A stretch of DNA of 64,000 nucleotides, from NCBI GenBank assembly GCA_902629505.1, contig CACORF010000001.1:1-64000 (forward strand), in the 5' to 3' direction. The notes beneath the pieces were generated by a model. That model did no database searches, was not told where the DNA came from, and saw nothing but the letters and a program-made list of their open reading frames with translations. Made by a program: the position numbers and the translations under genes. This document shows, in pieces, positions 37,721 to 40,171 of this stretch (the stretch's first letter is position 1; each line of letters starts with the position of its first letter). Source of the DNA: an uncultured Bacteroidota bacterium. Lineage in GTDB: Bacteria > Bacteroidota > Bacteroidia > Flavobacteriales > Flavobacteriaceae.

Positions 37721-38268
37721 TTTTTTAGTATTTTTTTTCCTTTTGGTGTTAAGACAGATTCAGGATGAAACTGGACTCCTCTAACATCATAATCTTTATG
37801 TTTAATTGACATAATCTCTCCATTTTCGTCAACTGAAGTTACTTTAAATTCTTTGGGAACAGGTTTATCAACAATCCATGAATGATATCTGCCAACCTCT
37901 AATTCAGATTCAATATTATTAAAAATTAAATCTGAATCAGTTACTGTTATTCTTGAGGAAACACCATGGTATACATTTTCCAGATTCCTCAATGTTCCTC
38001 CAAATGCTTCAGCTATAGCTTGTTGTCCCAAGCAAACGCCAAAAATATTTTTTGAATCGTAATACATCTTTATCACATCTAATATTTTTCCTGCTTCTGA
38101 TGGTATTCCTGGTCCTGGTGAAATAAGAATTGCATCAAAATGTTTTATTTCATCAAGCTCAAACTTATCATTTCTTTTAACTGTTATTTCACACCCAAGT
38201 TCCTCTACATAATACAAAAGATTATATGTAAAGGAATCGTAATTATCTATAAGGAAAATCTTCTTCAT
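37702..38268 (-). CDS. trpG: Anthranilate synthase component II (glutamine amidotransferase)
   Basis: IDNYDSFTYNL, GVCLGQQAIAEAFGG, VQFHPESVLTPKG. Confidence 0.94.
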   Translation of the reverse strand: MKKIFLIDNYDSFTYNLLYYVEELGCEITVKRNDKFELDEIKHFDAILISPGPGIPSEAGKILDVIKMYYDSKNIFGVCLGQQAIAEAFGGTLRNLENVYHGVSSRITVTDSDLIFNNIESELEVGRYHSWIVDKPVPKEFKVTSVDENGEIMSIKHKDYDVRGVQFHPESVLTPKGKKILKNWINSL

Positions 38269-39665
38269 TTTATCTTTTCAGCTTCATCTAAAGCCTTATC
38301 TAGTGCACCTAATTTATTTTTTACTTCCTCTAATTCTTTCTCAGGGACAGAGTCAATAACAATACCTGCTCCTGCTTGATAATTCAAAATATTATTTTTA
38401 CTAAAAAATGATCTTATAATAATTGCATGATTAAAGTTCCCATCAAAATCTATATATCCAATAGCTCCACCATAAAAATTCCTATTTACTTTTTCATACT
38501 TTTCAATTAATTCAAGAGCCTTATGTTTTGGTGCTCCTGATAATGTTCCTGCAGGAAATGTATCCTCAACAACTTGAAACGACTTTACACCCTCTTTTAA
38601 TATTGAAGTGACTTTAGATACAAGATGTATTACATGAGAATAAAATTGAACTTCTCTATTTTTTTCAATTTTAACATTGTTTCCGCTCCTACTTAAATCA
38701 TTTCTAGCTAAATCAACCAACATTATATGTTCAGAGTTTTCTTTTGGGTCTTCAGCTAACTCTTTAGCTCTTTTTTGATCTTCTTCATCGTTACCTGTTC
38801 TTTTGAATGTACCGGCAATGGGATGAATTTCAGACTTCCCATCTTTAATGATAATTTGAGCTTCTGGTGAGCTTCCAAAGATTTTAAAATCACCATAATC
38901 AAAGAAGAATAGATATGGTGAAGGATTTATTGATCTAAGGGCTCTGTATACGTTGAATTCATCACCACTAAATTTTTGTTTGAATCTTCTTGATAAAACT
39001 AACTGAAAAACATCACCTCTCTTACAATGTTCTTTTGCTTTTTTGACGTATTCAATATATTCATTATCTGTTATAGGTGATTCGGATATACCAGATTTTC
39101 TGAAGTTAAATACTGAGTAGCTCTTGTTATTTAGTATTGACTCCACATAATCAATATTATGGGATTCTTCAATAGAATTACAGAAAATGTGAGCCTCGTG
39201 ATTATACTGACTAATTGCAATTACATTTTTGTAAAGACCATAATATATATCTGGAATGTCAAAATCATCTTTATTTTTAATCTCAACTGAGTCATAATAT
39301 TTCACTGATTCATGACTCATGAATCCAAAAATTCCATTATTTAAAAATTTGAAATCAGATTTTGTAGTCTCGAACTTTTCTAAATAGTTGTGAATTACAC
39401 TTGAAATTTTTTCATCCTTACCTAACACTCTAGATTCATCCTCACCACTAGGATAAGAACAATGAACTTCACTGTTTTTAATTTTAATGTATCCTATTTG
39501 ATTGAAACATATAAATGAGTAGTTGTTATTAGCTAGCATGTAATCACTATTTTCTAATAAAAGACTATTAGGAAATATGTCTCTAATCTTTAAATAGACT
39601 TCAACAGGAGTAATAGTATCTGCAAAGATTTTTTTATGATAATTATTTAATTTTATTTTTTTCAT
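38265..39665 (-). CDS. trpE: Anthranilate synthase component I
   Basis: DVFQLVLSRRF, FPAGTLSGAPKHKALELI, GGAIGYIDFDG. Confidence 0.94.
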   Translation of the reverse strand: MKKIKLNNYHKKIFADTITPVEVYLKIRDIFPNSLLLENSDYMLANNNYSFICFNQIGYIKIKNSEVHCSYPSGEDESRVLGKDEKISSVIHNYLEKFETTKSDFKFLNNGIFGFMSHESVKYYDSVEIKNKDDFDIPDIYYGLYKNVIAISQYNHEAHIFCNSIEESHNIDYVESILNNKSYSVFNFRKSGISESPITDNEYIEYVKKAKEHCKRGDVFQLVLSRRFKQKFSGDEFNVYRALRSINPSPYLFFFDYGDFKIFGSSPEAQIIIKDGKSEIHPIAGTFKRTGNDEEDQKRAKELAEDPKENSEHIMLVDLARNDLSRSGNNVKIEKNREVQFYSHVIHLVSKVTSILKEGVKSFQVVEDTFPAGTLSGAPKHKALELIEKYEKVNRNFYGGAIGYIDFDGNFNHAIIIRSFFSKNNILNYQAGAGIVIDSVPEKELEEVKNKLGALDKALDEAEKIK

Positions 39666-39667
39666 AG

Positions 39668-39696
39668 CAAAAAAAAAGCCTGTCGTGAGACAAGCT
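39668..39696 (-). terminator. trp attenuator: intrinsic terminator immediately upstream of trpE
   Basis: Minus-strand AGCTTGTC-TCAC-GACAGGCT (8 bp with one G-U) followed by TTTTTTTTGC; ends 2 nt before trpE ATG (39665). Confidence 0.85.
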
Positions 39697-39724
39697 ATAT
39701 TATAACAGTTTTATTCACGATCAA

Positions 39725-39769
39725 TTAGATTTCGTAATTCCACCACCAGTATGTATTGATTAATTTCAT
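39725..39769 (-). CDS. trpL: trp operon leader peptide MKLINTYWWWNYEI
   Basis: Minus-strand ATGAAATTAATCAATACATACTGGTGGTGGAATTACGAAATCTAA; three consecutive TGG codons, directly upstream of terminator and trpE. Confidence 0.85.
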   Translation of the reverse strand: MKLINTYWWWNYEI

Positions 39770-39996
39770 CACGCAAATATAAAATAAAAACAAAATAAAC
39801 CAACAGAAACAAAACCTATAATTATAAAAATTGCTGTTGATATGAGTTTTAGATGTTTTTTTGTTCCTTCTGCCATATCCATTGTCTCAAGTTGAGGCTC
39901 ATTAACATCTTTAAGTTCATTTATAGATAGGAAAGTAGCTGCAACAACTGCACCAGTACAAACTAAACCCATTATAAATATAAAAGTATCACCCAT
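39769..39996 (-). CDS. Small two-TM membrane protein (75 aa), stop overlaps trpL ATG
   Basis: MGDTFIFIMGLVCTGAVVAATFLSINELKDVN...; TGATG overlap with trpL. Confidence 0.65.
   Translation of the reverse strand: MGDTFIFIMGLVCTGAVVAATFLSINELKDVNEPQLETMDMAEGTKKHLKLISTAIFIIIGFVSVGLFCFYFIFA
39774..39803 (-). promoter_or_regulatory. Putative trp operon promoter (Bacteroidota -33/-7 type)
   Basis: Minus-strand TTG (39803-39801)-N19-TATATTTG (39781-39774), 4 nt before the trpL ATG. Confidence 0.7.
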
Positions 39997-39997
39997 T

Positions 39998-40171
39998 TTA
40001 TTTGTTTAGCATCTGTTTAAAATAACAACCAAAAGAAAGTATTGAAGGAACCCATAATCCAACAAATAGTCCTTCATCTTTATAACCATAGAACCATAAA
40101 GAAACTGAAAGTACAAAAGAGATAAACGCAGCTCCAATTAGAAAAATATCAGATTTTTGAAAATATTTCAT
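39998..40171 (-). CDS. Small two-TM membrane protein (57 aa; below ORF-track cutoff)
   Basis: Translated by hand: MKYFQKSDIFLIGAAFISFVLSVSLWFYGYKDEGLFVGLWVPSILSFGCYFKQMLNK; 1 nt from the downstream ORF. Confidence 0.6.
   Translation of the reverse strand: MKYFQKSDIFLIGAAFISFVLSVSLWFYGYKDEGLFVGLWVPSILSFGCYFKQMLNK

Follow-up and report, generated by a model that had tools for sequence, protein, structure and literature searches.

Organization of the trp locus

The window, i.e., the whole stretch of 64,000 nucleotides analysed here, stems from an 865-kb draft genome whose named congeners are uncultured marine flavobacteria, e.g., the MED-G11-like bin FRAM18_bin151. On the minus strand the order TTG-N19-TATATTTG-CGTG-ATG leads into a 14-codon open reading frame (ORF) encoding the peptide MKLINTYWWWNYEI, followed by a terminator and the genes trpEGDCFBA. 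TrpE and TrpG were identified by their Pfam domains; trpD, C, F, B and A are ORFs in the expected order that were named by sequence, without a family search. The main features are as follows.

38265..39665, minus strand: trpE, first structural gene of trpEGDCFBA (Pfam Anth_synt_I_N and Chorismate_bind)
39725..39769, minus strand: trpL, leader peptide ORF MKLINTYWWWNYEI followed by its stop codon, 14 codons with three tandem Trp codons, read from the sequence; its ATG occupies 39769..39767
39769, minus strand: predicted transcription start (+1), the A of the trpL ATG, inferred from the box-to-start distance of 4-5 nt in F. johnsoniae and an A at box+5
39774..39781, minus strand: -7 element TATATTTG of a predicted promoter of sigma-ABfr type, from sequence and conservation
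39801..39803, minus strand: possible -33 element, represented by a TTG at a distance of 19 nt from the -7 box
39769..39996, minus strand: 75-aa ORF whose last codons hold the promoter; the protein is conserved in 17 genus members and has no confident Pfam match

The initial annotation had placed TTG-N19-TATATTTG at the end of the 75-aa ORF, 4 nt from the trpL ATG. Both coordinates and sequences proved correct: the element spans 39803..39774 on the minus strand and is separated from the ATG by CGTG. Upstream of trpL, two small ORFs of 57 and 75 aa (39769-40171, minus strand) probably encode membrane proteins and lack a confident Pfam match.

The -7 box is conserved in its position ahead of trpL

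The box TATATTTG fits TAnnTTTG, the -7 element of the Bacteroidota sigma-ABfr promoter. By itself the box is weak evidence, because TAnnTTTG is no commoner in the window than in shuffled sequence (91 occurrences compared to 104 expected), and the argument is therefore carried by position and conservation. In nearly all genus members the box lies 4-5 nt ahead of the trpL ATG. To extend the comparison, 135 distinct Flavobacteriaceae trp leaders were collected from TrpE-anchored searches and fetched regions. With the strict regular expression used, no leader was recovered from about 50 of the fetched loci; some of these were added by hand for the tree described below, and in the remaining ones, mostly from outside the family, the leader may be absent or diverged. 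TAHHTTTG was found 4-5 nt before the ATG in 59 of the 135 relatives, whereas Markov-1 resampling of their upstream sequences put it there with a frequency of 0.004. A fortuitous match within AT-rich coding sequence, with the trp promoter lying elsewhere, would fit the lack of enrichment across the window; however, the position of the box is conserved over many lineages with unrelated upstream sequence, against the 0.004 expected, and we consider this explanation extremely improbable. The Trp-rich leader peptide is retained among relatives, and loss of the box in relatives that keep trpL, named in the initial annotation as an observation that would speak against a leaderless trpL, was examined and left that prediction standing.

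Compared with the sigma-ABfr TTTG at -33, the window shows TTG-N19. Outside the genus, 24 of 45 leaderless loci had a TTG at exactly this distance from the box (1.7% expected), an enrichment in relatives. Within the window's genus TTG-N19 occurs in only 6 of 13 members, TAG often standing in its place, so that the -33 half of the promoter is less secure than the -7 half.

Box-to-ATG spacing points to a leaderless trpL mRNA

The gap between box and ATG was bimodal in the 135 leaders, with 4-5 nt in 59 and 14-21 nt in 57 of them. Gaps of 4, 5 and 6 nt were counted 27, 32 and 2 times, respectively, gaps of 7-12 nt were sparse, and a second mode appeared at 16-18 nt. Among cultured species, Zobellia uliginosa and Zobellia russellii have a gap of 5 nt. 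Only three leaders had gaps below 4 nt, each by virtue of an extra in-frame upstream ATG beside the box. Transcripts of F. johnsoniae begin 4 or 5 nt after the same box (PMC6847099). The base at box+5 was an A in 100% of gap-4, 83% of gap-5 and 78% of gap-14-24 leaders; this A is the A of the ATG itself at gap 4, the -1 base at gap 5, and lies inside the leader at long gaps. Leadered relatives display an A-rich translation-start context, with 57-91% A at positions -2 to -10. In the leaderless class A amounts to only 3-33% at -2 to -4, and the A-rich context is missing between box and ATG. Taken together, gap classes, the A at box+5 and the pattern of A-rich context indicate that what precedes the AUG in leaderless loci is promoter and not mRNA. 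The spacing of 4-5 nt and the A at box+5 set the predicted +1 at or adjoining the AUG, and in gap-5 leaders transcription may start one base further upstream, at AAUG.

A leaderless or near-leaderless trpL, as predicted in the initial annotation, is thus strongly supported by comparison across relatives, with the start site itself placed by analogy to F. johnsoniae. Counting against this reading, the transcripts mapped in B. thetaiotaomicron and F. psychrophilum were leaderless in only 3.7-5.5% of cases. The promoter might also be real and the start lie elsewhere, giving a 5' leader of 1-10 nt or another trpL start codon, e.g., the in-frame TTG at 39793. Some relatives do show gaps of 7-12 nt, and gap-5 loci usually carry a -1 A that could serve as +1, but the floor of 4 nt and the missing A-rich context favour a start at or adjoining the AUG, and the TTG at 39793 precedes the box. 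Such a shifted start is unlikely. In one further relative the best leaderless start would be a GTG 4 nt after TATATTTG, and a leaderless GTG would be unusual; with its ATG ambiguous, this leader was scored as leadered despite the 4-nt spacing.

In the proposed mechanism, RNA polymerase carrying the Bacteroidota housekeeping sigma factor would bind the TATATTTG promoter, transcription would start at the A of the trpL ATG, and the ribosome would initiate directly on the 5'-terminal AUG. To our knowledge, Bacteroidota are without Shine-Dalgarno sequences.

The upstream ORF and translational coupling

The stop codon of the 75-aa ORF (TGA, 39771..39769, minus strand) overlaps the trpL ATG in the sequence TGATG, and within the genus this stop codon overlaps or abuts the trpL ATG. 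Across 17 sequences, codons 69-74 of the ORF, which cover the box, showed zero synonymous change, while the amino acid at codon 70 varies; mean synonymous diversity over codons 1-66 was 0.40. As TTT accounts for many of the fixed codons and the genome is AT-rich, Ile73 is the most telling: it is ATA in 17/17 sequences, and several other Ile codons of the ORF vary. At Ala75, the next codon outside the box, each of the four GCN codons occurs. This synonymous constraint points to a working promoter.

An alternative is that trpL is mainly expressed as the third cistron of a unit with the 57-aa and 75-aa ORFs, by termination-reinitiation at TGATG or TAATG, the box being of minor importance. In all 13 distinct leaderless genus loci tested an upstream ORF ends at the trpL start, the 75-aa ORF and trpL have no visible terminator between them, and in other prokaryotes translation can be coupled through overlapping stop and start codons (PMC6728339). 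However, the 4-6 nt spacing is retained with no ORF ending near the ATG in 45 of 45 leaderless loci from outside the genus, which argues against translational coupling as a general explanation of the spacing, and the constraint on the box likewise speaks for promoter function. Coupling as the main route therefore appears quite improbable; inside the genus, read-through transcripts and translational coupling are a possible extra route to trpL expression, next to the leaderless mRNA. The embedding of the box in an ORF, which had been taken as part of the arrangement, holds in the window's genus, but it is found only there and, given the 45 loci, is not needed for the arrangement.

The leader encodes a probable trp attenuator of classical type

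The minus strand carries the predicted segments of a transcription attenuator.

39755..39760, minus strand: segment 1, ATCAAT, pairing with segment 2 when the ribosome is absent (predicted fold before the terminator 3' arm emerges; window only)
39715..39725, minus strand: segment 2, ATTGATCGTGA, antiterminator 5' half with the conserved CGTGA (pairs with TCACG in the predicted folds of 126 of 129 leaders)
39669..39695, minus strand: segments 3 and 4, intrinsic terminator GCTTGTC-TCAC-GACAGGC-T9 (sequence and fold; equivalent hairpin in 123 leaders)

Folding yielded the classical set of structures, i.e., segment 1 ATCAAT with ATTGAT of segment 2 in the absence of a ribosome, the CGTGA/TCACG antiterminator with a ribosome placed on the Trp codons, and the terminator alone with a ribosome placed on the stop codon. 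The CGTGA/TCACG pairing was predicted in 126 of 129 leaders when the region upstream of the stalled ribosome was masked and folding was carried out before the 3' arm emerges. A tandem-Trp short ORF, MKLINTYWWWNYEI, precedes trpE, and the predicted folds contain a mutually exclusive antiterminator and terminator in correct ribosome geometry. In every leader scored, from both the leaderless and the leadered groups, CGTGA starts 25-30 nt past the first Trp codon. The stop codon moves from about -7 to +15 around CGTGA, and a constant Trp-to-CGTGA distance despite this movement would be expected where stalling at Trp is what is measured. Terminator pairing was kept with several compensatory pair types in the 123 leaders. 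Covariation was checked for the terminator alone; the CGTGA/TCACG pairing is nearly invariant, so that covariation says little about it. The folding energy of the whole leader was unremarkable (z -0.92).

With charged tRNA-Trp available, the ribosome would reach the stop codon and cover segment 2, allowing the terminator to form. When it is scarce, the ribosome would stall at WWW and cover segment 1, leaving CGTGA of segment 2 to pair with the TCACG of the 5' portion of the terminator, so that trpE would be transcribed. When translation does not occur, segments 1 and 2 would pair and termination would result by default, as modelled for the window. On this model the attenuator is otherwise classical and is related to Rfam Bacteroid-trp; we infer its response to tryptophan. 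The locus as a whole is very probably a ribosome-mediated trp transcription attenuator with a leaderless leader-peptide mRNA, a promoter-start fusion that, judging from sequence comparison, is widespread in Flavobacteriaceae.

Recurrence of the predicted leaderless state in Flavobacteriaceae

The distribution of both spacing classes was followed on a quick, unrooted TrpE tree of 124 rows with SH-aLRT support only. The leaderless state, found in 66 of the 124 rows, required at least 10 changes, five of them forced by well-supported branches. Most Flavobacterium rows are leadered and three are leaderless, and three relatives outside the order, found with Rfam family RF01692, had gaps of 22-23 nt. 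The promoter-start fusion would accordingly have switched several times with a form bearing a leader of ~10-17 nt.

Predicted leaderless starts at other genes

Of the 131 box-bearing ORFs in 800 kb of congener G017, 23 had a gap of 4-5 nt, compared to ~0.6 expected per position, with gene starts chosen mechanically as the longest ATG ORF. A reversed-box control over the same 800 kb gave no peak at gaps 4-5. The peak together with the clean control indicates that such starts form a real, genome-wide class. Some of the 23 ORFs look like housekeeping genes, as named by eye from their N-termini. The share of box-bearing ORFs at gaps 3-6 was 22% in the congener, 11% in a genome with leaderless trpL (G071) and 6% in a leadered one (G207), from small samples with mechanically chosen starts. 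From these sequence counts, leaderless starts look commoner in the window's genus than elsewhere, where values of 3.7-5.5% have been reported.

A scan of 400 kb of the congener for further leaderless leader peptides accompanied by a terminator found trpL alone. A search for His leaders in 151 genomes returned five candidate His-rich leader peptides downstream of TATATTTG, all apparently leadered: one had a gap of 7 nt and the others longer ones. Leaderless starts in His attenuators were thus not supported, as all five matches had gaps of at least 7 nt.

Relation to known attenuators

Bacteroid-trp (RF01692) was the best-scoring Rfam match of the window, at 28.4 bits (E 0.81) and below the gathering threshold of 49 bits. 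Weak matches to RprA, Phe_leader and similar families were judged to be due to chance. The window shares with RF01692 a Trp-rich leader ORF and a terminator upstream of Bacteroidota trp genes, but has a shorter peptide and an mRNA predicted to start with the AUG. Leadered relatives of the Flavobacterium type score above the cut-off of the family, and relatives above it mostly have gaps of 17-23 nt. A search with RF01692 across the class gave matches in only 14 of 247 genomes, which makes the model unfit as a phylum-wide survey.

The initial annotation had regarded an attenuator with leaderless initiation as unusual. This assessment calls for some correction, since S. lividans trpL1 and S. meliloti trpL have already been described as leaderless. 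In S. lividans, trpL1 encodes a leaderless Trp-rich leader peptide, MFAHSTRNWWWTAHPAAH, ahead of trpE, together with a Rho-independent terminator (PMC8079986). It resembles the window in its Trp-rich peptide before trpE, its terminator and its leaderless start, predicted in our case; being from an actinobacterium with a different promoter type, it is likened by arrangement. The S. meliloti trp attenuator trpL (rnTrpL) has a 14-aa leader peptide and an RNA whose 5' end is the ATG (PMC7298713). Peptide length, attenuator and 5' end (again predicted here) agree with the window; in contrast, S. meliloti is an alphaproteobacterium, and the liberated RNA and the peptide have further roles in trans. 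In mycobacteria, leaderless short ORFs encoding polycysteine are amino-acid-responsive attenuators according to work cited in PMC9031893. They share with the window the use of a leaderless short ORF, predicted in our case, in such a role but respond to cysteine and are described as regulating the translation of downstream genes. A limited literature search returned no report of a leaderless trpL attenuator in Bacteroidota. Leaderless trpL attenuators are thus known from S. lividans and S. meliloti, and what appears to be new is how widely and repeatedly they are used in Bacteroidota.

According to surveys, leaderless mRNAs are rare in Bacteroidota, and yet in dozens of lineages a trp regulator has apparently merged its promoter with its start codon. 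We lean slightly towards the view that leaderless initiation is selected in the Flavobacteriaceae trp attenuator, which would switch repeatedly between discrete leader states of 0-1 nt and ~10-17 nt, and that in streamlined marine lineages it is part of a sizeable leaderless class, roughly one in five box-bearing genes, within a phylum in which mRNAs of this kind were thought rare. Leaderless lineages and their close leadered relatives represent a natural experiment on whether Bacteroidota ribosomes start efficiently at 5'-terminal AUGs, and such pairs also let one ask if removal of the leader alters attenuation. The succession of TAHHTTTG, 4-5 nt and ATG offers a sequence rule by which leaderless genes may be predicted in uncultured marine genomes.
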